Shown: one piece after another, positions 4,448 through 19,958 of the stretch
How the letters are laid out: each line of letters opens with the position of its first letter
Numbering within the stretch: the stretch's first letter is position 1
From: Arcobacteraceae bacterium
GTDB lineage: Bacteria > Campylobacterota > Campylobacteria > Campylobacterales > Arcobacteraceae
Assembly: GCA_029935705.1 (NCBI GenBank)
Contig: JAOZJU010000003.1
Location: 1 to 58,480 of the forward strand
DNA length: 58,480 nucleotides
Direction of reading: 5' to 3'
Notes under the pieces: model-generated
Told to the model about the DNA's origin: nothing
What the model saw: the letters and a program-made list of their open reading frames with translations, nothing else
Database searches by the model: none
Position numbers and translations under genes: made by a program

Positions 4448-7123
4448 ATGAAAATAACATATATGCTAAAGGTTGTTTTAACTGTTTTTGTCTTATCTGT
4501 ACTGACTACTGGTTGTACAGAAGATAAAAAAAACGAGGTTAAATCAGATACCAATTCAGTAGCTTCAGGTACTGCTACTAACGATGCAAACAGCAAAGTT
4601 GGTGGTGGCTTACAAGCTATCATGGAGAAAAGGGGTTTGACACAAAACGATATAATAAGAGCTGCAAAAACATATCTACCAACAGGCGGTAGAGATGAGT
4701 TTGTAGTATTTAGTTCAGGTGGACAAAGTGGGCAAATCATAGTTTATGGTGTGCCATCTATGAAGATACTCAAGTATATTGCAGTATTTACACCAGAGCC
4801 TTGGCAAGGATATGGTTATGATGAAGATTCAAAAGCAATTCTAAGACAAGGAAACATAAGAGGTAAAGAGATAACTTGGGGAGATACTCATCACCCTGCT
4901 ATCTCTGAAACAGATGGAAAATATGACGGTAAATGGCTTGCTATCAACGACAAAGCAAACCCAAGAGTTGCTATCATAGATTTAGCTGACTTTGAGACTA
5001 AACAAATAGTTGTAAACCCTGTGTTCAAAAGTGACCACGGTGGAGCATTTTTCACACAAAATAGTGAATATATCATAGAAACAGCTCAATATGGAGCTCC
5101 GTTTGATAACAACTATCACTCAATAGAAGAGTACAAAGAGACTTATAGAGGTGGTGTAACTATGTGGAAATTTGATCCAAAAATTGGACGAATCAACGAA
5201 AAAGCATCATACACTATTGAGATGCCTCCATATATGCAAGATCTAAGTGATGCAGGTAAAAGTGTATCTCATGGTTGGGCTTTTACAAACTCATTTAATA
5301 CAGAGATGTATACAGGTGGGATTGAAGTTGGTATGCCACCAAACGAAGCTGGTATGAGTAGATATGATACTGACTTTTTGCATGTATATAACTGGGAAAA
5401 ACTAGCAAAACTAGCAAAAGATCCTAAAAATGTAAAAGTAATAAACGGACACAATGTAATTCCTATGGATGTAGCTGTTAAAAACAATGCATTGTTTTTG
5501 ATACCAGAACCAAAATCACCTCACGGTGTTGATGTATCACCAGATGGTGAATATATTATTGTTTGTGGTAAGCTTGACACTCATGCTTCTGTATACAAAT
5601 GGAGCAAGATCAAAAAACTTATAGAAGCAAAAGAGTTTGCAGGAAAAGATCCATATGGTATACCTATTTTGGATATGAAAAAATCTTTACACGGACAAAT
5701 TGAGTTAGGCTTGGGTCCTTTGCACAACCAATACTCAAACATAGATGGAGAAGTATATACTTCACTTTATGTTGATAGTCAAGTTGTAAAATGGAACTAC
5801 AAAGAGCTTAAAGTTCTTGATAAAGAAAATGTTCACTACAATATAGGACACCTTGCTGGTATGGAGGGTAAAACTGCTGACCCACAAGGAAAATATATAA
5901 TCGCTCTAAACAAACTATCTATAGATAGATTTCAAAATGTTGGACCACTTCACCCACAAAATCATCAGTTGATAGATATAAGTGGAAAAACTATGGATCT
6001 GTTATATGATATGCCTATACCTTTAGGTGAGCCTCATCAAGCAGTTGCAATACGAGCAGAGAAGTTGCACCCACATGTAAGATATCCTATGGGAACAAAT
6101 TCCAAAACAGGTAAAGAACACAAAGGTAAAACACTTGCAGGTCAAGAACGAATAGAAAGAAATGGCAAGACTGTTACTGTATATGGAACTATGGTTAGAT
6201 CTCATATCAACCCTGAAAGAATCACAGTAAACAAAGGTGATACAGTCATCATGCATATGACAAACTTAGAGAGAGCTCAAGATGAAACTCACGGTTTCAC
6301 AGTAGATAACTATAATATACATATGTCACTTGAACCAGGTGAGACATCTACTATCAAGTTTGTAGCTGACACAGAGGGAGTATTTCCTTACTACTGTACT
6401 GAATTTTGTTCTGCACTTCACTTAGAGATGATGGGATATTTGATGGTAAAAGATCCAAATAAAACATACAAAAGTGCAACAAAACTTAAAGTGCAAACCA
6501 TGACAAAAGAGCAACTTGAAGCAGAATACAAAAAAACAGTAGCTACAAACGATGCTACTGATGCTGTAATTCAATCAGTTGTTAAATTTTTGAAAGATAA
6601 TAACTTTGACAAACACAAAGTTGTAGCAGATTTGGTTACTGATGCATTTGATCAATATGGTCAAATCAAAGCACAAAAAGATTTAGCAAACAAAGCTTAC
6701 AAAGCTGGAGATATTGAAAAAGCAATACTATATGAAAATATGATATGGCAACTTATGGTTAAAACAGCAGATGTTGGTATACGAGCAAAAGATGCTTTAG
6801 TGCGAATCATAGCTACCAAACAAAGTCCAGCTGCTATGAGAGGCGAAGTAGCCTTTAATGAAGGTGGATGTAGTGGTTGTCATGTTGTTGGTAAAGTATC
6901 ATCTGGACCAGATTTAACTGGGGTATTATCAAGACATGAAAATGGTGAACAATGGGTAAAAGAGTTTATCTTAAATCCTGCAGAGAAATACCATGAAGAG
7001 TATGTTAAAGGTATGATTGATTATTTTAAATTAAAAATGCCAAATCAAAACATGAGTGAAGCAGAGGCAAACGAGATTGTCGAATACTTCAAATGGATTG
7101 ATGAAAATGCAAAACTATTCTAA
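4448..7123 (+). CDS. nosZ: Nitrous oxide reductase with C-terminal cytochrome c domain (clade II NosZ)
   Basis: Periplasmic multicopper enzyme reducing N2O to N2, the terminal step of denitrification. The order is a Sec-type signal with lipobox-like LTTGC (C23), a beta-propeller carrying CuZ histidine motifs (DTHHP, DHGGAF, HGVDVS), a cupredoxin domain with the CuA ligands C650, C654, H658 and M661, then a cytochrome c domain with haem motif CSGCH at 808-812. The 891-residue length, absence of a Tat signal and fused haem domain define the epsilonproteobacterial clade II enzyme, as in Wolinella. It heads the nos operon and is followed by a perfect terminator hairpin at 7145-7168. A cytochrome-fused enzyme can take electrons directly from small cytochromes such as NosC1/C2. 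Whether the lipobox is used is uncertain. Confidence 0.97.
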   Translation: MKITYMLKVVLTVFVLSVLTTGCTEDKKNEVKSDTNSVASGTATNDANSKVGGGLQAIMEKRGLTQNDIIRAAKTYLPTGGRDEFVVFSSGGQSGQIIVYGVPSMKILKYIAVFTPEPWQGYGYDEDSKAILRQGNIRGKEITWGDTHHPAISETDGKYDGKWLAINDKANPRVAIIDLADFETKQIVVNPVFKSDHGGAFFTQNSEYIIETAQYGAPFDNNYHSIEEYKETYRGGVTMWKFDPKIGRINEKASYTIEMPPYMQDLSDAGKSVSHGWAFTNSFNTEMYTGGIEVGMPPNEAGMSRYDTDFLHVYNWEKLAKLAKDPKNVKVINGHNVIPMDVAVKNNALFLIPEPKSPHGVDVSPDGEYIIVCGKLDTHASVYKWSKIKKLIEAKEFAGKDPYGIPILDMKKSLHGQIELGLGPLHNQYSNIDGEVYTSLYVDSQVVKWNYKELKVLDKENVHYNIGHLAGMEGKTADPQGKYIIALNKLSIDRFQNVGPLHPQNHQLIDISGKTMDLLYDMPIPLGEPHQAVAIRAEKLHPHVRYPMGTNSKTGKEHKGKTLAGQERIERNGKTVTVYGTMVRSHINPERITVNKGDTVIMHMTNLERAQDETHGFTVDNYNIHMSLEPGETSTIKFVADTEGVFPYYCTEFCSALHLEMMGYLMVKDPNKTYKSATKLKVQTMTKEQLEAEYKKTVATNDATDAVIQSVVKFLKDNNFDKHKVVADLVTDAFDQYGQIKAQKDLANKAYKAGDIEKAILYENMIWQLMVKTADVGIRAKDALVRIIATKQSPAAMRGEVAFNEGGCSGCHVVGKVSSGPDLTGVLSRHENGEQWVKEFILNPAEKYHEEYVKGMIDYFKLKMPNQNMSEAEANEIVEYFKWIDENAKLF

Positions 7124-11084: not shown

Positions 11085-11990
11085 ATGGATAAATACAACA
11101 ATAAAGAAACGGTAAGATATTCAAGTTTTTTCAGCACTTTTTTTGATATCACTAAAGAGGGTAAAAAATTTTTAAGCTATAGGTCTAAACGGTGGATACT
11201 TATAATTGGGATTCATCTTTTTTTCTTTTTGTCATTTTATATTGATTTGCAACTCCTTGAGGGTTCGCTCAGTGGTTCGAGATTTTTAGGTTTTCATATG
11301 ATTGATCCTTTTATATCTATCCAGATGTTTGTGGCAACCTATCATGTACCAATAAATATGATAATAGGCATAACAACTATCATAATCGTTTATTTGCTAG
11401 TAGGTGGCAGAAGCTATTGTGCTTGGGTTTGTCCTTATGGACTCTTAAGCGAGATAGGGGAAAAATGGCACAATACATTGGTATCTAAAAATATTATAAA
11501 AAATAGAAAATTTGATGAAAGAGTTCGTCATATATTTTGGTTTATATTTTTGCTCCTTTCATTTAGTAGCGGATATTTGGTATTTGAAACATTTAATGTA
11601 GTAAGCATACTAAGCAGAGCTATAATCTATGGCTGGTCAGTTGCGATAATATGGGTTGTAGTCGTGTTTTTGATGGAGGTGTTTTTCTCTCGTCGTGCTT
11701 GGTGTAAGTATATCTGTCCTGTTGGCACAACATATAGTTACATAAGCAAAGGTTCTGCTCTTAAAATTCAATGGAACGACAACTGTGACCACTGTATGGT
11801 GTGTCATGATGTATGTTTTGAAAGTCATGTTTTGGAGCTTACCAAAGCAAAATACGATACTCAAAGAGAGAAAAATGGCATCAAAACACAATATGTCACA
11901 GGTATTGACTGTTCATTATGTGGTAGATGCATAGATGTTTGTCATGAAGATGCATTAAAATTTGATTTTAGACTCAAAGGATTGATTTGA
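11085..11990 (+). CDS. nosH: NosH, NapH-like membrane ferredoxin
   Basis: Inner-membrane iron-sulfur protein proposed to oxidise menaquinol and pass electrons to NosG. There are four predicted helices (about residues 35-57, 88-112, 145-165, 180-205). After helix 2 and helix 4 come the CxxxCP motifs CAWVCPYG and CKYICPVG typical of NapH/NosR. Two 4Fe-4S motifs lie in the C-terminal part: CDHCMVCHDVC and CSLCGRCIDVC. 301 residues. The stop overlaps the nosF TTG start by 4 bases. The family is clear; the quinol-oxidising role is known from NapGH and inferred here. Confidence 0.9.
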   Translation: MDKYNNKETVRYSSFFSTFFDITKEGKKFLSYRSKRWILIIGIHLFFFLSFYIDLQLLEGSLSGSRFLGFHMIDPFISIQMFVATYHVPINMIIGITTIIIVYLLVGGRSYCAWVCPYGLLSEIGEKWHNTLVSKNIIKNRKFDERVRHIFWFIFLLLSFSSGYLVFETFNVVSILSRAIIYGWSVAIIWVVVVFLMEVFFSRRAWCKYICPVGTTYSYISKGSALKIQWNDNCDHCMVCHDVCFESHVLELTKAKYDTQREKNGIKTQYVTGIDCSLCGRCIDVCHEDALKFDFRLKGLI

Positions 11991-12625
11991 TAAAGATAGA
12001 AAATATCACAAAGAAGTTTGGCAAACATATATCGCTCGATAATATAAATTTGACCATAAACAACGGCGATAGCATAGCCTTGATGGGTGCAAATGGTGCA
12101 GGAAAAACTACACTAGTTAGATCTATATTGGGATATTATCATACTGATAGTGGAGAGATTACAATAGATGGCTTAAACCCAATAAAACACAGAGTAGAGG
12201 TATTAGAAAAGATAAGTTTTGTGCCACAACTTCCACCTCCTATCAAACTTAACATAAGTGAACTTTTACAGTATGTACAAGTTAGCACTGGCACAAAAAA
12301 AGAGGATATTATAGAGCTGTCTTACAAAATGAAACTCGACATAAAAGAGAATCTAAACAAGTCATTTTTCTCTTTGAGTGGTGGTATGAAACAAAAACTT
12401 CTCATAGCTATAAGTTTAGCGAGAAAAAGCAAAATAATTATATATGACGAACCTACAGCAAATCTTGACCCTAAAGCTAGAGACGATTTTTATAGTTTGT
12501 TGCAAGAAAACTCTCAAAACAAGATACTGCTTTTTGTCACACATAGGATAGAAGAGGTCAAACAAGTAGTAAATAGACAAATATATATGGATATAGGCAA
12601 AATAATATCAGATGAAAACTACTAA
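11987..12625 (+). CDS. nosF: NosF, ABC transporter ATP-binding protein
   Basis: Cytoplasmic ATPase that pairs with the NosY permease to export a sulfur species, through NosD, for CuZ assembly. Walker A GANGAGKTT is at residues 34-42, the signature is LSGGMKQK, Walker B is IIIYDEPTANLDP, and the switch histidine follows in FVTHR. 212 residues. It starts at TTG 11987, overlapping the nosH stop by 4 bases. Unusually, its partner nosY lies about 6 kb downstream (18640), with another complete ABC transporter between them. Confidence 0.9.
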   Translation: MIKIENITKKFGKHISLDNINLTINNGDSIALMGANGAGKTTLVRSILGYYHTDSGEITIDGLNPIKHRVEVLEKISFVPQLPPPIKLNISELLQYVQVSTGTKKEDIIELSYKMKLDIKENLNKSFFSLSGGMKQKLLIAISLARKSKIIIYDEPTANLDPKARDDFYSLLQENSQNKILLFVTHRIEEVKQVVNRQIYMDIGKIISDENY

Positions 12626-12719
12626 AAATAGTTTAAAATGATAAATCACAAAAGTTATACAAAGATAGATATAACAAAGTTTTTATAAAACTGACAAAAT
12701 AGACAAAAAAGGATAAAAT

Positions 12720-13796
12720 ATGATAAATATAAACAAAATATTGTTAATAATCACCATAAGCTTGACAGCTTTAAGCGGACAAATGTTCCAAACAGTGCCA
12801 ATACAAAAGGCGAAAATAATCCAGCAAGGAAAAGATAAAATATATTGCCCAAATTGTGGTATGCATCTTGGTAAGTTTTATAAGACCAACCATATTCACA
12901 AAGCCAATCAGTATTGTTCACTTCATTGTTTGGTTGAAAACAATCAAGGAAAACCACCATCAAATGTCAAAGTGGTAGATACAAATAGTCTAAAACATAT
13001 AGATGCTTTCAAGGCTTTTTATATCGTAGGTTCCAAAAAAAAGGGCACTATGAGTTTAAATAGCAAATATGCCTTTGAAGATAAAAATGAAGCGATAAAA
13101 TTTAAAAGAAAGTTTGGTGGCAAGATGATGAGTTTTGAAGAGGCATTTGATGTTGCTAAAAAAGACTTTGTGCAAGATATCAATATGATAGAAAAGAAAA
13201 GAACTAAAAAAGTTTATAAAATAGGCAAAAAATTATATCTTAAAAAATGTCAAAAAGATATGATAGATGTCAATAAGTTTCAAAAAATATCGATGCTAAA
13301 AAACCATATAAAAACAGAAAAATTGTGTAAAAATATAGTCCAAGATAAGCAACTACAAGCTATTGCTGTATATCTATGGGATATAAAAAAATTAGGCAAA
13401 TCACTACAAAAAGCAGACACCATAAAGGTTCCTAAAAGTGCAAAATGCCCTGTATGTGGTATGTTTGTAGCAAAATATCCAAAATGGGCAGCAACCGTAA
13501 GCGACAAAGGCAAGAACTACTATTTTGATGGTGTCAAAGATATGATGAAGTTTATATTTAAAACAAAAAAAGAGTATAAAAATATTAAAGTAACTGATTA
13601 TTATACCACAAACGAGATAGATGCTATCAAAGCATACTATGTCACAGGTTCAACCATATATGGCCCTATGGGGCATGAGCTTATACCATTTTCTACAAGA
13701 GAAAAGGCAAAAAGTTTCAAAGATGACCACAGTGGCAAAAAGATATTAAGATATAGCCAAATAGACAAAAAAGTTATAAATGAGATTGATAAATAG
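12720..13796 (+). CDS. Tandem two-domain NosL-family protein
   Basis: Probable periplasmic copper-binding accessory protein for NosZ. A signal peptide (about 1-20) precedes two NosL domains: domain 1 (about 40-150) with CPNCGM at 43-48 and a second cysteine pair C66/C70, and domain 2 (about 235-350) with CPVCGM at 243-248. The ~75-residue segment between (about 160-230) reads like a small cytochrome c fold (YLKKC ... LQAIAVYLWDI), but the haem motif is missing: C177 is followed by QKDM rather than xxCH. 358 residues, more than twice a normal NosL. The ATG at 12720 has AAAAAAGGATAAAAT before it. A 94-base gap separates it from nosF. The NosL assignment comes from motif and context; the linker origin is inference. 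Confidence 0.75.
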   Translation: MININKILLIITISLTALSGQMFQTVPIQKAKIIQQGKDKIYCPNCGMHLGKFYKTNHIHKANQYCSLHCLVENNQGKPPSNVKVVDTNSLKHIDAFKAFYIVGSKKKGTMSLNSKYAFEDKNEAIKFKRKFGGKMMSFEEAFDVAKKDFVQDINMIEKKRTKKVYKIGKKLYLKKCQKDMIDVNKFQKISMLKNHIKTEKLCKNIVQDKQLQAIAVYLWDIKKLGKSLQKADTIKVPKSAKCPVCGMFVAKYPKWAATVSDKGKNYYFDGVKDMMKFIFKTKKEYKNIKVTDYYTTNEIDAIKAYYVTGSTIYGPMGHELIPFSTREKAKSFKDDHSGKKILRYSQIDKKVINEIDK

Positions 13797-13968
13797 TCTT
13801 ACACTTCTGCTTTTTGTTTTGATAGCTGTAGTTTTTGTTGATTATATTAGCTTTGATAGAGCTTATAAAAATAGTCAAATAGAACTAATAGCATCAAAAA
13901 TAGGATATATAAAACTATCAACCAATTTTAAAAACGACAGTTACAAAAAGTTTGTATATGTTAAATAA
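13780..13968 (+). CDS. Small single-pass membrane protein
   Basis: 62-residue protein with one N-terminal hydrophobic helix (about residues 6-24) and a polar tail. I do not recognise the family. It overlaps the tandem NosL gene by 17 bases and the downstream permease by 11, so it is embedded in the operon and probably translationally coupled. This layout makes a real gene more likely than a chance ORF. It could be a small subunit or assembly factor of the neighbouring ABC transporter. Confidence 0.6.
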   Translation: MRLINSLTLLLFVLIAVVFVDYISFDRAYKNSQIELIASKIGYIKLSTNFKNDSYKKFVYVK

Positions 13969-15067
13969 AGAGTTTTTAAACTTTGCAGTTCTTATGTTGA
14001 ACAAAGACAAATCAAACCATATATTTAGTGCTGTTTTGTTTATGTTTATTGTTTTTATCTTAAGTGCTGTTTTGTTTATATCAAACTCTATACAAAACGA
14101 TATGCTTCTAACTTTAGATAGTCAAGCTCAAATAATAGTCAAAAATCAAAAAGCAGGCAAACACACACAAATCACTGATGAATATCTCGATGAAATAATT
14201 CAAATAAACGGGATAGAGAATATAGAAGGTAAAATTGAGGGTTACTACTATTTTGCTCAAGATGATAGGTATTTTCATATTTTTGGCAACGACGACACCC
14301 CTTTTGACAAGGTCACAATAGGCGAGGGGGTTAAAGATATTTTAGATAAGTTTTATTATAAAGAGTATTTTAATTTTATAACAGATGAGAAAATTTTAAA
14401 AGTTTTTATAGATAAAACAATACCAAAAGAGGCAAATATCATATCAAATGATATTATGATTTTAAACACTCAAAAAGCAAGTATGGTATTGGGTTTAGAT
14501 GAAAATGAGTACTCTTATTTGCAAATAACTATTCCAAAAGATAGTGAGATTGATTTTATAGCAAATAAAATTAAATTTATCTATCCGCATCTAAAAATAG
14601 AAACAAAAGAGCAACTTCAATCAAACATAAAACATCTTTTTTATTATAAGGGTGGGTTATTTATGATACTTTATATTGTTGTTTTGCTCTCTTTTTTTAT
14701 TTTGTTAAAAAACCAAATAGACAATACTATTGGAACTTCTCGAAAAAATATAGCAATACTAAGAGCCATAGGTTATAGTATAAACAATATTATATTGTTG
14801 AAATTTATTCAAAATATCATAATCTCTCTGGGTTCATATACGATAGGGGTTGTAGGGGCTTATATTTATGTATTTAAGTTAGATGCCCCTTTGTTAAAAT
14901 ATCTCTTTTTAGGTAGTGAAATATCAAACAATATATCATTTACACCGACAATCAATTTTGAGATATTGTTTTTGATATTTATATTTACTATCATACCTTT
15001 TTTGTCAGCAGTCATATTGCCATCTTGGAAAATTGCTATTAGTGATATAAATGAGGCGATGAGATGA
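13958..15067 (+). CDS. FtsX/MacB-like ABC permease in nos accessory region
   Basis: Inner-membrane permease of the LolC/E-MacB-FtsX type. One N-terminal helix (about 18-40), a large extracytoplasmic domain (about 45-220), and three C-terminal helices (about 225-245, 275-300, 325-350) give the typical topology. The segment IAILRAIGYS is the coupling region normally seen after the second helix. The start is ATG 13958, chosen over TTG 13952. It overlaps the ATPase gene by 4 bases (ATGA). MacB-type transporters perform mechanotransmission on periplasmic partners, not bulk transport. Placement among NosL genes suggests it works on copper or sulfur delivery, or lipoprotein release. The substrate is unknown. 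Confidence 0.75.
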   Translation: MLNKEFLNFAVLMLNKDKSNHIFSAVLFMFIVFILSAVLFISNSIQNDMLLTLDSQAQIIVKNQKAGKHTQITDEYLDEIIQINGIENIEGKIEGYYYFAQDDRYFHIFGNDDTPFDKVTIGEGVKDILDKFYYKEYFNFITDEKILKVFIDKTIPKEANIISNDIMILNTQKASMVLGLDENEYSYLQITIPKDSEIDFIANKIKFIYPHLKIETKEQLQSNIKHLFYYKGGLFMILYIVVLLSFFILLKNQIDNTIGTSRKNIAILRAIGYSINNIILLKFIQNIIISLGSYTIGVVGAYIYVFKLDAPLLKYLFLGSEISNNISFTPTINFEILFLIFIFTIIPFLSAVILPSWKIAISDINEAMR

Positions 15068-15726
15068 TAAAAGTTACAAATTTGTACAAGATATTTAATC
15101 AAAACAAACCAAACCATTTTGAAGCACTAAAAAATATAAATTTAGATATCAAACAAAATGAGTTGGTACTGCTTAAAGGTATAAGCGGTAGTGGCAAAAG
15201 CACCATGCTCTCTATAATTGCTTCATTTTCACATCCTACAAGCGGTAGTGTGGTATGTGATGGCAAAAATATAGCAAAACTTCCTGATAAACATGCTTCA
15301 AGCTTTAGAAGCAAAAGTATTGGGTTTATTTTTCAGTCATTTAACCTTATTGAAGAGCTTACAGTTGAAGATAATGTAAAAGTACCACTTACTGTATGCG
15401 AAGATAAAGATATAAGCAAACAAACTAAAACAGCTATGAAGCAAGCAAATATATATCATAAAAAAGAGCAAAAAATAAAAAATTTAAGTGGAGGCGAGAA
15501 GCAAAGAGTTGCTATTGCTAGAGCTCTTGTAAACAATCCAAACATCATATTAGCAGATGAGCCAACTGCCAATCTTGACACAGCTAACTCTTTGGTTTTT
15601 ATAGAGACTATAAAAGAGCTTAAAAAGTTAGGCAAAACTATAATAATAGCAACTCATGATAGTATATTTGACAATTTGAGTTTTGTCGATAGATATTTAG
15701 ATATAATAGATGGAACCATTAAGTAA
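15064..15726 (+). CDS. LolD/MacB-like ABC transporter ATP-binding protein
   Basis: ATPase partner of the upstream permease. Walker A GISGSGKST is at residues 39-47, the signature is LSGGEKQRVAIARAL, Walker B is IILADEPTANLD, and the switch histidine is in IATHD. 220 residues, typical of LolD/FtsE/MacB ATPases and distinct from NosF, whose signature is LSGGMKQK. It overlaps the permease by 4 bases, and the next gene begins 3 bases later. Only one permease gene is present, so a homodimeric permease is expected. Confidence 0.85.
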   Translation: MIKVTNLYKIFNQNKPNHFEALKNINLDIKQNELVLLKGISGSGKSTMLSIIASFSHPTSGSVVCDGKNIAKLPDKHASSFRSKSIGFIFQSFNLIEELTVEDNVKVPLTVCEDKDISKQTKTAMKQANIYHKKEQKIKNLSGGEKQRVAIARALVNNPNIILADEPTANLDTANSLVFIETIKELKKLGKTIIIATHDSIFDNLSFVDRYLDIIDGTIK

Positions 15727-15729
15727 ATT

Positions 15730-16686
15730 ATGTCAATATTTTTATCAAACAACATAGTAACACTTTTTTTTATACAAACTATATTGTTGCTCTTTTCAAT
15801 ATATAGTTTGTTTATATCGCTAAATATTATCAAAAACTGGGACTTTAATAAAACAACATCATATCAATACAATTTGGAAAAAAAGAGCTACTTGATATCT
15901 TTGATTATATTTTTTGTTATATTTGTGAAAATTATTTTATTTATATTTTTTGTAAACTCTTTAGATGGTTTGTCCTCTATAGTTCCTGGTGCTATGTGTG
16001 CTTCTGGTATCATCAATGCAAATGAGTATGGAACTATTTTGTTGTTTTTCAAGATATTTGTATTGGCAGGTTTTGGTATATGGCTTGTTTTAAACAAGTT
16101 AGATATAGAAGCTTTAGACTATCCATATCTTGTCAAAAAATATTATCTTTTTTTAGTTTTGTTTTTATCTATAGTTATTGAGTTTGTTCTTGAGTTTTTA
16201 TACTTTACAAATATCTCTATAAAGAGACCTGTGCTTTGTTGTAGTGCTGTATTTCAAGATACTCAAGGCTTTGCATCTATGATGAAGATTGAGTATATAT
16301 TGATACTTTTTTATATAAATTATATAGCTTTAATCATATCAAATGTTATGAAAAATAGTTTGACATCTCTTTTATCTGGAGCTTTGTTTTTAGTTTTGTC
16401 ATATTTTTCTATTGTCTATTTTTTTGGCACATATATATATGAGCTACCTACACACAAATGCCCGTTTTGTATGCTTCAAGAAGAGTATTTTTACATAGGA
16501 TATATTATTTGGATCACTATGTTTTTAGCAGTATTTTTTAGTATTAGTTCGTTTATCATTGAAAAATTTATCAAAAAAGAGTATAATGGCGGATACAAAC
16601 TATCTATCATCTTTAGCACTATATTTGTATTGTTGTGTAGTTATTATGTTTTGGCATATTATATCACAAATGGTGTTTTTTTGTGA
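15730..16686 (+). CDS. Polytopic membrane protein with paired cysteines
   Basis: 318-residue integral membrane protein with about eight hydrophobic helices. It carries C90 (GAMCASG), an adjacent pair C170-C171 (PVLCCSAV) and a CPFC motif at 244-247 in a loop before a helix. CPFC resembles thiol-disulfide active sites of DsbB/VKOR-type proteins, and paired cysteines can also bind copper. I cannot place it in a named family. It follows the ABC ATPase by 3 bases and precedes a NosL gene, so a role in disulfide or copper handling for the nos system is a reasonable inference, not shown. Confidence 0.6.
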   Translation: MSIFLSNNIVTLFFIQTILLLFSIYSLFISLNIIKNWDFNKTTSYQYNLEKKSYLISLIIFFVIFVKIILFIFFVNSLDGLSSIVPGAMCASGIINANEYGTILLFFKIFVLAGFGIWLVLNKLDIEALDYPYLVKKYYLFLVLFLSIVIEFVLEFLYFTNISIKRPVLCCSAVFQDTQGFASMMKIEYILILFYINYIALIISNVMKNSLTSLLSGALFLVLSYFSIVYFFGTYIYELPTHKCPFCMLQEEYFYIGYIIWITMFLAVFFSISSFIIEKFIKKEYNGGYKLSIIFSTIFVLLCSYYVLAYYITNGVFL

Positions 16687-16707
16687 TAGTTAAAGAGGAG
16701 AATTGAT

Positions 16708-17226
16708 ATTTCAAAAGTTTTGATAACCATATTGTTAGTATTGACAATAGTGTTTGTCTTTATTTCTATGTCAAACTCACAAAATATGAGAGTAGTTTAT
16801 ACAAAAAACTATGACAAAAAAGTGATACCTATAGTGCCAGGCAAGTTTCAAGATAGTGATTGTGGTATGGTTATAGATGATATAAGCTATGCTTCACAAG
16901 TTATAGCAGATGATGGCAAAACTTGGTTTTTTCATGACCATGGTGGTATGGTGCATTGGTTACAAAATAAAAGTTTCAAAGATGATGCTACTATATTTGT
17001 CATGACCAAAGATAGTTTAAAATGGATAGATGGAAGAAAAGCTTGGTATAGCAGAACAGATATCACTCCTATGTTTTATGGGTTTGGTGCTTATGAAAAG
17101 AGAAAGGAAGATTTGATTGATTTTCAAACTATGGTACTGCTCATGAATAGGGGAGAAACTATGGCAAATCCAAAAGTAAAAAAAATGTTACTTAAACAAT
17201 TTGGGAAAAAGAATGGAAACGATTGA
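16708..17226 (+). CDS. NosL-family protein with reduced metal motif, probable AUU start
   Basis: NosL-like periplasmic or membrane-anchored protein (N-terminal helix about 5-22). The usual CxxCGM is reduced to DSDCGM, with C52 and M54 kept and the first cysteine replaced by Asp. A later HDHGGM segment (76-81) replaces the second cysteine region with histidines. The only in-frame TTG is 16720, which would start inside the hydrophobic helix and lacks a ribosome site. A strong AAAGAGGAG at 16692-16700 is 7 bases before an ATT at 16708 that gives MSKVLIT, with the expected positive n-region; I therefore propose ATT as start. A sequencing error in an ATG is the alternative. It ends overlapping the next gene by 14 bases. 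Confidence 0.7.
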   Translation: MSKVLITILLVLTIVFVFISMSNSQNMRVVYTKNYDKKVIPIVPGKFQDSDCGMVIDDISYASQVIADDGKTWFFHDHGGMVHWLQNKSFKDDATIFVMTKDSLKWIDGRKAWYSRTDITPMFYGFGAYEKRKEDLIDFQTMVLLMNRGETMANPKVKKMLLKQFGKKNGND

Positions 17227-17923
17227 TATAATCTCTATAATCACTATAGCATTTTTAGGTTCGTTTGGACACTGTATAGGTATGTGTGGTGGTATAGTCA
17301 TAGCATATTCGAGCACCAAGATAGAAGCTAGATGGACAAAAATTAGACAATCAACTGCTCATATATTATACTCTATTGGCAGAGTTTTTACCTATACCAT
17401 TTTAGGTGGTATATTTGGATACTTAGGCGGAGTGGCTACTTTTTCACATATGGCAAATGGCATCTTGTGGTTAGTAGTAGGCAGTGTTATGCTTCTTATT
17501 GGCTTGTCATTGTTAGGTTACATCAAGTTTGTACCAGCTGTTGAACACTCTTTGTCAAGTTCAAACTGGTATAAAAAAAATTTCACAAAACTACTTCAAA
17601 GTCAAACATTTTTTAGCTTTTTTATATTGGGTATGTTAAATGGTCTTTTGCCTTGTGGTTTGGTCTATTTTTTTGCTATTGTAGCAGTGGGCACTGGCAG
17701 TTGGTTTTTTGGTGCTATTGTTATGCTGATATTTGGTCTTAGCACGGTTCCAGCACTTTTTTCACTGGGATTTTTTGTAGCTTTGTTTAAACAAACCAAA
17801 CTTCGCGATATATTTATAAAACTCTCAGCAGTTTTGGTGATACTGTATGGATTTTATACTATTTACAATGGATACAACTATATAATCACTCCTGATAGAA
17901 CTTTGTTAAATTGCCATATATAG
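17213..17923 (+). CDS. DsbD_2/TauE-SafE-like membrane protein
   Basis: 236-residue inner-membrane protein with six helices. GHCIGMCGG (C21, C25) in the first helix and LLPCGLVY (C148) at the fourth are the hallmark motifs of the UreH_2/DsbD_2-type family, often annotated as sulfite exporter TauE/SafE. Members near copper-oxidase and nos genes are thought to move copper or reducing power. The start is ATG 17213 rather than TTG 17201, overlapping the NosL gene by 14 bases. It is the last gene before a promoter-containing gap. The family is secure; transport of copper is inference. Confidence 0.8.
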   Translation: METIDIISIITIAFLGSFGHCIGMCGGIVIAYSSTKIEARWTKIRQSTAHILYSIGRVFTYTILGGIFGYLGGVATFSHMANGILWLVVGSVMLLIGLSLLGYIKFVPAVEHSLSSSNWYKKNFTKLLQSQTFFSFFILGMLNGLLPCGLVYFFAIVAVGTGSWFFGAIVMLIFGLSTVPALFSLGFFVALFKQTKLRDIFIKLSAVLVILYGFYTIYNGYNYIITPDRTLLNCHI

Positions 17924-17979
17924 AACTGTTTGATAGGTGTAGATAGTTCTAATCGTTTGATAAAACAATCAAAATAGAT

Positions 17980-18014
17980 AAAAGATATAGAGCAAAAAGA
18001 GAAAAATATCTTTT
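17980..18014 (+). terminator. Weak AT-rich hairpin, possible terminator
   Basis: AAAAGATAT and ATATCTTTT (9 bp) with a 17-base loop, about 57 bases after the preceding stop and followed by a T-rich run. The stem is all but GC-free, so function is uncertain. Confidence 0.3.
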
Positions 18015-18051
18015 CTTTTACTATTTTTGGGGTTATTTAAGAGATATATGC

Positions 18052-18057
18052 TATAAT
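18052..18057 (+). promoter_or_regulatory. Promoter -10 for the nosL-nosY unit
   Basis: Perfect TATAAT, preceded by ATATATGC (extended -10-like TG) and GGGGTTATTT about 16 bases further upstream. It lies 118 bases before the nosL ATG and implies a separate transcription unit for nosL-nosY-nosL-like. Confidence 0.6.
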
Positions 18058-18169
18058 GTTTTAATAATATTTAAGCCATAGTTACAGATGATTTTTCCAT
18101 CTACTTAAAGAATAAGTGCTTAACTTAAGATGAGCAATAGATAAAAGATATAAACAATATAGGAGATAT

Positions 18170-18643
18170 ATGATAAAAAAGTTAATTTTTGCTGTTTTTT
18201 TGACAATATTTTTACTATCTTGTGAAAAGAAGATCAAAACAGACCTACACGAAGTCCACTGGGACAGAGATATGTGTGAACTATGCAAGATGATAGTTAG
18301 TGAACGAAATTTTGCAGTGCAAGTTGTAAATACAAAAAATGGCAAAAGCTATATGTTTGATGATATAGGTTGTGCTGTTCAATGGTTTGAAGAGAAAAAT
18401 ATAGCATGGAGCGACCAAGCAAACATATTTATAACCGATGCTACAACTGGCAAGTTTATTGATGCTAAAAAAGCTTTTTACGATGTAAATAGCAGAACGC
18501 CTATGGACTTTGGATTTGGGGCATACGAACACAAAAATAGCATAAAAGATAAAAAAACTATACTCAACTATGAAGAGGTAAAACTAAGGATACTAAGAGG
18601 TGAAACGATGCAAAATGCTCTTATTAAAAAGGTAAACCAATGA
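18170..18643 (+). CDS. nosL: NosL, copper chaperone lipoprotein
   Basis: The canonical NosL of this cluster, a periplasmic lipoprotein that binds Cu(I) for NosZ assembly. A lipoprotein signal ends at LLSC (C18). The metal motif CELCKM lies at 36-41, and C68 in DDIGCAVQWF follows. 157 residues, normal length. AGGAG precedes the ATG, and the end overlaps nosY by 4 bases. Of the four NosL-type proteins here this is the only one with both cysteines, the methionine and a lipobox, so it is the best candidate for the standard role. Confidence 0.9.
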   Translation: MIKKLIFAVFLTIFLLSCEKKIKTDLHEVHWDRDMCELCKMIVSERNFAVQVVNTKNGKSYMFDDIGCAVQWFEEKNIAWSDQANIFITDATTGKFIDAKKAFYDVNSRTPMDFGFGAYEHKNSIKDKKTILNYEEVKLRILRGETMQNALIKKVNQ

Positions 18644-19467
18644 AAAATTTAAGTTTAATAGCTTTTTTGGACTTGAAGGAGTCTGTTCGCTCAAAGTGGT
18701 TTTTGGTATATACTGTTGTATTTGGTGGGTTGATAGCTTTATTTTTTGTAGCAGGTGTGACTCAATCGCAAGTGATGGGGTTTAGTGGATTGAGCAGACT
18801 TTTGCTTATGTATATCCAAATAACCATAGTGATACTGCCTATATTTATACTAATTACCACTGTTCGTTCAATATCAAGCGATAGAGATAGCCACATATTG
18901 GAGTATATGTTGTCTTTTCCTATATCACTCAAGCAGTATTATTGGGGCAAAATCATAGGTAGATTTGTGACAGTATTTTTGCCTGTATTTGTAGCTATGA
19001 TTGTAGCTATTGTAGTAGGGGCATTTAAAGGAGCTGGAGTTCCTTGGGATATATTTTTGTTGTATTCTGGGCTTTTGTTTGCTTTGTGTGTGTCGTTTTT
19101 AGGTATTGCATTTTTTATATCTTCATTTGTCAAATCAAGTGAAGTAGCTTTAGGTGTTGCATTTTTTGTGTGGATATTTTTGTTAAGTTTTATAGATATT
19201 GCTTTGATATCTTTGATGTTATCAAATAGATACAACGAAGAGATGATTATAGCTTTTGCTTTGCTCAATCCTTTGGAGCTGTTTAGAGTTGCTGCTATAT
19301 CGCTGTTTGACCCTACACTTACAGTTATGGGGCCTGTGGCATTTTATATACTTGACAATATATCTCAAACAAAGTTTGTGTTGTTGTCTATGTTGTATCC
19401 TATTGTTGTAGGGGTGTTATTTGCAATATCTGGTTTTGTTATATTTAAAAAAAAGGATTTAGTATGA
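18640..19467 (+). CDS. nosY: NosY, ABC permease for copper-site maturation
   Basis: Inner-membrane permease that pairs with NosF and NosD to supply sulfur for CuZ. 275 residues with six hydrophobic helices (about 18-40, 55-78, 105-130, 140-165, 170-200, 245-270), and the ABC-2 type segment SSDRDSHILEYMLSFPIS after the second helix. It overlaps both nosL and the following gene by 4 bases (ATGA). Separation from nosF by about 6 kb is unusual, since nosDFY are generally adjacent. Confidence 0.88.
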   Translation: MKNLSLIAFLDLKESVRSKWFLVYTVVFGGLIALFFVAGVTQSQVMGFSGLSRLLLMYIQITIVILPIFILITTVRSISSDRDSHILEYMLSFPISLKQYYWGKIIGRFVTVFLPVFVAMIVAIVVGAFKGAGVPWDIFLLYSGLLFALCVSFLGIAFFISSFVKSSEVALGVAFFVWIFLLSFIDIALISLMLSNRYNEEMIIAFALLNPLELFRVAAISLFDPTLTVMGPVAFYILDNISQTKFVLLSMLYPIVVGVLFAISGFVIFKKKDLV

Positions 19468-19958
19468 AAAAGTTTCTAATTGTTTGTTGTTTGTTGTTTG
19501 TTGTCAATCTGTCAGCTTTGCCTATACCGCATAAGCCTTATGTGATGGATTATGACAAAAAAACTTTATGTTTAGTAAGAAAACTACCGATATACAAAAA
19601 CCCAAAATGGGCATCAAAAATAACCCTTCAAAATGGTAAAAATCTCTATTTTTCAAGTCCTAAATCTATGTTTGAATTTTATCATCAGCCTGGCAAATGG
19701 TTTGATATAGGAGTAAAAAAAGAGAGTGATTTTAAAGATATAGTTGTCACAGACTATGAAACTATGAAACCAATAGATGCAAAAAAGGCTTTTTTTGTAT
19801 ATGGAAGTCGTGCTATATCACCTAGTGGTGACGATCTAGTATCGTTTGAAAGTAAAGATGCTGCAAGTAAGTTTGCATCTCAATATAGTGGCAAAAGAGT
19901 ATTTAAGTTTGATGAAGTTAAACCATCTCTTATAAAACTTATAAATGGAAATATCTAA
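19464..19958 (+). CDS. NosL-like protein lacking the CxxCxM metal site
   Basis: 164-residue exported protein (signal about 1-18) that aligns without gaps to domain 2 of the tandem NosL at 12720 through the metal-motif segment. CPVCGMFVAKYPKW there corresponds to CLVRKLPIYKNPKW here, so the second cysteine is Arg39, Gly is Lys and Met is Leu. C36 is kept. Downstream SSPKSMFEFY replaces the cysteine region. It probably cannot bind Cu(I) in the NosL manner and may be a structural or partner subunit. It is the last gene of the nosL-nosY unit and is followed by a terminator. Confidence 0.75.
   Translation: MKKFLIVCCLLFVVNLSALPIPHKPYVMDYDKKTLCLVRKLPIYKNPKWASKITLQNGKNLYFSSPKSMFEFYHQPGKWFDIGVKKESDFKDIVVTDYETMKPIDAKKAFFVYGSRAISPSGDDLVSFESKDAASKFASQYSGKRVFKFDEVKPSLIKLINGNI

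Follow-up and report, generated by a model that had tools for sequence, protein, structure and literature searches.

What do the genes for an additional ATP-binding cassette (ABC) transporter and several NosL-type proteins do inside the nos cluster of an Arcobacteraceae bacterium (assembly GCA_029935705.1), where they lie between nosF and nosL-nosY? The stretch analysed, called the window here, comprises the 58,480 nucleotides of contig JAOZJU010000003.1 (positions 1 to 58,480), and its genome, assembled from a metagenome, is referred to as G000. These genes make up a composite accessory block, and we consider it probable, at roughly 60%, that its role is the delivery of Cu(I) in the periplasm. 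One part (block A: a tandem NosL protein, a 62-aa protein, an FtsX-type permease, its ATPase and a cysteine-containing membrane protein, CPFC) is of a kind found at the end of the mcc operon, which encodes the haem-copper sulfite reductase MccA, and the other (block B: the NosLv-DsbD2 pair) is of a type that elsewhere stands alone or beside cbb3 oxidase genes. A role in copper delivery is suggested because two unrelated copper-requiring enzymes, NosZ and MccA, share the block. What is new is the kinship with mcc, the composite structure of the cluster and the finding that two copper enzymes recurrently share the cassette, whereas the individual pieces were already known as gene neighbours elsewhere.

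The block in the window

The window holds a clade II nos cluster of the Wolinella succinogenes type, in which nosZ-B-D-G-C1-C2-H-F is followed by nosY and nosL genes, as judged from its open reading frames (ORFs) and their homologues in relatives. The initial annotation had listed the same genes in the same order, and every one of these ORFs is present, open and of the expected family, the upstream genes starting at 4448 (nosZ), 7177 (nosB), 8017 (nosD), 9229 (nosG), 9953 (nosC1), 10561 (nosC2) and 11085 (nosH). From nosF onwards the features are as follows (TM, transmembrane; AF2, AlphaFold2).

11987..12625, + strand: nosF, ATPase of the nos ABC transporter (Pfam ABC_tran; Walker A GANGAGKT, LSGGMKQ, IIIYDEP)
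12720..13796, + strand: NosLx2, tandem NosL of 358 aa, mcc-type, putative Cu(I) chaperone (Pfam NosL twice, E 5.6e-42)
13780..13968, + strand: 62-aa cassette gene product (ORF; one TM segment predicted)
13952..15067, + strand: FtsX-type permease with the type VII (MacB/LolCE/HrtB) fold (Pfam FtsX 1.1e-9; AF2, Foldseek, VIA)
15064..15726, + strand: cognate ATPase of the LolD/FtsE/MacB type (ABC_tran 5.5e-37; Walker and signature motifs intact)
15730..16686, + strand: CPFC protein, 318 aa, 8 TM segments (alignments, AF2 model)
16720..17226, + strand: NosLv, diverged, N-terminally anchored NosL of the pair type, not the mcc type (DCGM motif; gene tree; match to the window's nosL)
17201..17923, + strand: DsbD2, DsbD_2 membrane protein and partner of NosLv (Pfam DsbD_2 1.8e-48)
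17924..18169, no strand: 246-nt gap before nosL (sequence; TGCTATAAT near 18049, possible promoter)
18170..18643, + strand: nosL, lipoprotein-type NosL (Pfam NosL 1.7e-6; CELCKM motif)
18640..19467, + strand: nosY, permease partner of nosF (Pfam ABC2_membrane_2)
19464..19958, + strand: NosL2, NosL-like protein lacking CxM (Pfam NosL above cut-off at 19551-19931)

The window thus encodes four proteins of the NosL type, which together contain five NosL domains. The distance from the end of nosF (12625) to the start of nosY (18640) is 6.0 kb, in line with the initial annotation's estimate of about 6 kb; in the majority of relatives it is about 430 nt (~0.43 kb). Neighbouring genes mostly overlap by 4-26 nt or nearly touch, the exceptions being a 94-nt gap before NosLx2 and the 246-nt gap before nosL; TGCTATAAT, which lies in the latter gap, may be a promoter, and a promoter scan gave a signal near background. 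Because the same set of genes returns in the same order in tens of genomes, the arrangement is not due to chance, and the initial view of the region as a coherent module is borne out.

Kinship with the mcc operon and origin of the parts

The closest counterpart of block A is found behind mccA. In the 20 clade-1 mcc neighbourhoods that were read the order is mccA-B-C-D-ccsBA-(Sel1)-NosLx2-(small)-FtsX-LolD-CPFC-NosLv, so that the mcc operon ends in NosLx2-FtsX-LolD-CPFC-NosLv there. Pfam assigns the mcc genes to FKBP isomerase, 4Fe-4S, NrfD, CcsBA-type assembly protein and Sel1 families, and one of the 20 neighbourhoods is that of W. succinogenes itself (G209), whose MccA shows zero differences from PDB 4rkm over 701 residues. 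The mcc clusters of W. succinogenes and of Campylobacter/Sulfurospirillum (MccA, PDB 4rkm) share the order NosLx2-small-FtsX-LolD-CPFC with the window; however, the mcc version follows mccABCD-ccsBA-Sel1, ends in its own NosLv and has no DsbD2 in the loci read, whereas the window version lies inside nos, has a different NosLv together with DsbD2, and belongs to a genome without mccA. None of the four genomes sampled from the genus (G000 and the three others, G001, G002 and G003) has mccA. With nos genes in place of mccABCD and ccsBA upstream, the window does not hold an mcc operon, but by gene order and by grouping with mcc-linked copies it does hold an mcc-type accessory cassette. In the literature searched we found no description of the mcc accessory genes, although they may already be described in Kern et al. 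2011, a paper on the mcc cluster of W. succinogenes, and none of how MccA acquires copper.

Phylogenetic analysis supports this kinship. In a concatenated tree of FtsX-LolD-CPFC (hereafter the core) from 121 loci, the core of the window is sister to the mcc-linked clade with an approximate likelihood-ratio test (aLRT) support of 100, the mcc clade alone receiving 99.2. The gene trees, which add the three other genomes of the genus, likewise place the window with mcc-linked copies for NosLx2 (Shimodaira-Hasegawa (SH) support 0.996), FtsX (0.999) and CPFC (0.90), and weakly for LolD (0.66). NosLv and DsbD2, on the other hand, group with pair-type copies, for NosLv including the pair of G001 and G003, which is located between ccoG and ccoNOQP (L144:1366-7280 and L145). 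A core of the mcc type joined to a NosLv-DsbD2 pair of the stand-alone or cbb3-oxidase-linked type makes the cluster a composite of two mobile accessory modules. The more specific idea that the pair moved out of the cco operon of G000 is unsupported: the ccoG of this genome belongs to a different type (51% identity), and its ccoN is found at the edge of a contig.

Within the genus the parts are arranged in several ways. In G002 the core is split, with nosF-small-FtsX-LolD at one site and CPFC-NosLx2-NosLv-DsbD2-nosL-nosY-NosL2 at another, while G001 and G003 have NosLx2-small-FtsX-LolD by nosF, CPFC by nosL-nosY on another contig, and NosLv-DsbD2 in the cco locus. As the parts are spread over two or three loci in G001-G003, the compact order is not common to the genus as sampled, though all parts are kept. 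The other nos-linked cores fall on several distant branches (14 Fitch changes for 18 nos-linked tips), which indicates that linkage to nos has changed repeatedly. Because the next nos-linked branch (L217) is sister to the window together with mcc, and the position of the root is uncertain, the tree does not fix the direction of transfer between nos and mcc.

An insertion of a similar kind is on record, which qualifies the initial annotation where it turned on whether this exact arrangement had been published: in the nos cluster of Sulfurospirillum cavolei five genes, including those of an ABC transporter, are inserted between nosL and nosY (PMC4794192), and this insertion resembles that of the window in lying in the nosF...nosY interval and in having ABC permease, ATPase and hypothetical genes. 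In two Sulfurospirillum-type genomes, G247 (L292) and G285 (L291), the core also lies between nosL and nosY. These cores belong to a different clade from that of the window, and L292 is without NosLx2 or DsbD2 and inserted after nosL, whereas the window block precedes nosL.

The distribution was determined in 249 genomes from across the Campylobacterota, a sample that is rich in one genus (g29). The core is present in 87 of them, clade-1 MccA in 41, clade-2 MccA in 35 and nosZ in 75. All 41 genomes with clade-1 MccA have the core, 40 of them within 15 kb of mccA, the remaining one being split between contigs. The core also occurs in 58 of the 75 nosZ genomes as opposed to 29 of the 174 nosZ-negative ones, and of the 58 genomes carrying both 13 have it within 30 kb of nosZ, and one of these (G250, 26.7 kb) owes its place to an mcc-linked copy. 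Fisher tests, uncorrected for kinship, give p values of 7e-23 for the core with clade-1 MccA and 6e-20 for the core with nosZ, which overstate independence because the sample is rich in g29. Among 60 relatives, CPFC is found in 33 and nosZ in 27, with CPFC occurring without nosZ in 13. The nos-negative genomes G029 and G035 have the identical full order NosLx2-small-FtsX-LolD-CPFC-NosLv-DsbD2, and the nos-negative G004 has it too, save that no separate small ORF was called. The initial annotation had suggested that the set is perhaps dedicated to NosZ and to this lineage, and had itself named wide occurrence in nos-negative genomes as the observation that would count against it; with 87 of 249 genomes carrying the core, 29 of them nosZ-negative, neither part of this suggestion holds.

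Several loci have further features beside the cassette. At L098, L106, L107, L185, L203 and L218 a response-regulator/histidine-kinase pair, a candidate copper or redox sensor, adjoins NosLx2 or the cassette. Cassettes on contigs labelled Candidatus Krumholzibacteriota (L212, L215) may reflect transfer or contamination of metagenome-assembled genomes. W. succinogenes has a second FtsX-LolD-CPFC copy (L289:4431-9900) after ccoG and a SLAC1/TehA-type channel gene, and its nosZ (L299:10522-14400) is split by an inserted 396-aa ORF on the opposite strand.

Proteins of the block

NosLx2 has one CxM motif in each NosL half, CPNCGM and CPVCGM, and its C-terminal half matches the NosL chain of PDB 7osf; the NosL of 7osf and 7znq is a copper-binding lipoprotein. 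Taking a profile match together with a CxM motif as the mark of a NosL copper chaperone, both domains of NosLx2 as well as nosL, a lipoprotein judging by its N-terminus, show the two features. The result is split for the others: NosLv has a single CxM (DCGM) but a weak profile match (Pfam NosL E only 0.095, yet E 8e-19 to the window's nosL), and NosL2 matches the profile but lacks CxM, as do 31 of its 32 homologues. NosL2 is an ordinary, regular neighbour of nosY in this group: it follows nosY in most of the nos loci in which that gene was read. A cytochrome-c-like linker between the two NosLx2 domains (12720-13796) was considered and rejected as a loose likeness, since CxxCH is found in 0 of 130 homologues. 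The small ORF between NosLx2 and FtsX is present in many relatives.

The permease has the features of a type VII ABC transporter, namely four TM helices, a periplasmic domain between TM1 and TM2, an FtsX C-terminal domain and the MacB/Lol fold. Its AF2 model (predicted local distance difference test, pLDDT, 84) matches LolE in Foldseek (E 1.2e-14), and VIA gives Z 18.8 for LolE (root-mean-square deviation, rmsd, 8.8; 342 aligned) and Z 18.7 for HrtB (rmsd 5.5; 318 aligned). All subfamily profiles for the ATPase stay below cut-off (LolD 189 bits versus the 308 needed). The transporter thus shares its permease fold and ATPase family with LolCDE, MacB and HrtBA, but differs from them in having no second permease, no MacA and a substrate that is only proposed: the cassette has one permease rather than the LolC and LolE that accompany LolD in LolCDE, and its ORFs and their Pfam matches include no gene for the MacA adaptor of a MacAB-TolC efflux pump.

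CPFC is predicted to span the membrane eight times (AF2 pLDDT 90), and M89-C90, C170-C171 and H242-C244-P-x-C247 are invariant in alignments of 34 and 37 members. It has no match in Pfam, NCBIfam or among PDB sequences, and its whole model has no Foldseek match below E 0.001; VIA Z scores of up to 13 over residues 1-166 were rejected as evidence of a known fold, being helical-bundle background. Compared with the DsbB/VKOR thiol oxidoreductases, which have a four-helix fold and a catalytic CxxC, the CPxC motif of CPFC is invariant and the whole-model search gives no clear fold match.

Proposed copper delivery and its alternatives

NosFY couples ATP hydrolysis to the transfer of copper by NosD and NosL. 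The block may work along similar lines, with Cu(I) held at the two CxM sites of NosLx2 as putative donor, and with the type VII pair using ATP hydrolysed in the cytoplasm to drive conformational changes on the periplasmic side, as NosFY does for NosD, such that the ABC motor could help load copper into the apo-enzyme. The DsbD_2 protein and CPFC, whose invariant membrane residues comprise five cysteines as well as Met and His, might keep Cu(I) and ligand thiols reduced, or relay them. As the window organism lacks MccA, the client would be NosZ and possibly the cbb3 oxidase too, and the benefit would be felt mainly under copper scarcity. Like the cassette, NosDFY-NosL (PDB 7osf, 7znq) combines an ABC transporter with a NosL copper chaperone, energy coupling to the periplasm being the proposed common principle; however, NosFY is of the ABC-2 type and works with NosD, whereas the cassette permease is of type VII (FtsX/MacB/Lol) and without a NosD. 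Where the initial annotation proposed copper and sulfur delivery, copper is the most plausible theme (NosL proteins; links to nos, mcc and ccoG/cbb3), while sulfur finds nothing beyond the DsbD_2/TauE resemblance. A broader proposal, to which we give somewhat less than even odds, is that one interchangeable cassette, built around a type VII ABC transporter plus a new cysteine protein with eight TM segments, helps mature NosZ, MccA and perhaps the cbb3 oxidase, and that in this genus the sulfite-reductase version was transferred to NosZ or retained for it, whether or not MccA had been there before.

A number of observations weigh against copper delivery by the block. The core is found without nosZ or clade-1 mccA in 21 genomes and is missing from 17 nosZ genomes; NosZ thus does not require the block, and NosZ and MccA by themselves do not account for it. 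Clade-2 MccA (L233-L252; G156, G071 and others), which is 45-51% identical to the MccA of G045, had been predicted to lack two non-haem cysteines, as should any MccA without the cassette. This prediction failed, as both cysteines are kept in 20 of 20 clade-2 MccA proteins with no adjoining cassette, suggesting that the cassette could be no more than one route among several, or that clade 2 has a different function. Transcription of the block may be separate from that of nosLY on account of the 246-nt gap, and we know of no type VII ABC transporter that handles copper. As an observation of its own, clade-2 MccA adjoins a protein of ~690 aa with six CxxCH motifs, and often ccsBA, without mccBCD or the NosL cassette.

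The known substrates of type VII ABC transporters are lipoproteins, haem and peptides. The cassette could accordingly be a LolCDE- or HrtBA-like system that sorts anchored maturation factors, or handles haem, for cytochrome-type enzymes, with copper incidental; LolE and HrtB are the permease's best fold matches, MccA is an octahaem protein whose operon also has the haem lyase CcsBA, and nosL is a lipoprotein by its N-terminus. Yet there is a single permease gene and no LolC/LolE pair, the block has at least two NosL-type copper proteins and none for haem, and ccoG and cbb3 genes are among its links, and we regard this explanation as unlikely. A little less likely still is a general response to thiol or copper stress in the envelope, or a supply of reductant rather than delivery, in which case linkage to nos and mcc would reflect co-regulation under anoxia. 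Such a function would suit the 21 genomes with neither nosZ nor clade-1 mccA, the two-component genes beside several cassettes and a thiol relay through DsbD_2 and the CPFC cysteines, but the fixed position in the mcc operon, and the fact that insertion next to nos took place repeatedly and independently, suggest that the block serves these enzymes.

The initial annotation had suggested a module that, in this lineage, works for NosZ specifically. The location inside the nos cluster, the parts that adjoin nos genes in the genus and the absence of mccA all speak for it, but this is very improbable given the wide occurrence without nosZ, the fixed place in mcc operons and the 17 nosZ genomes that do without; a recent dedication to NosZ within this genus only is possible. 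Copper delivery by a composite block remains our preferred explanation.

Accessory copper routes are poorly known for clade II NosZ, an enzyme of the biological N2O sink. If our interpretation is correct, the cassette common to NosZ and MccA would be a candidate for a shared machine that loads copper and is powered by a type VII ABC motor, and the question could be tested in W. succinogenes, which has both clusters (although in the genome read its nosZ is interrupted).

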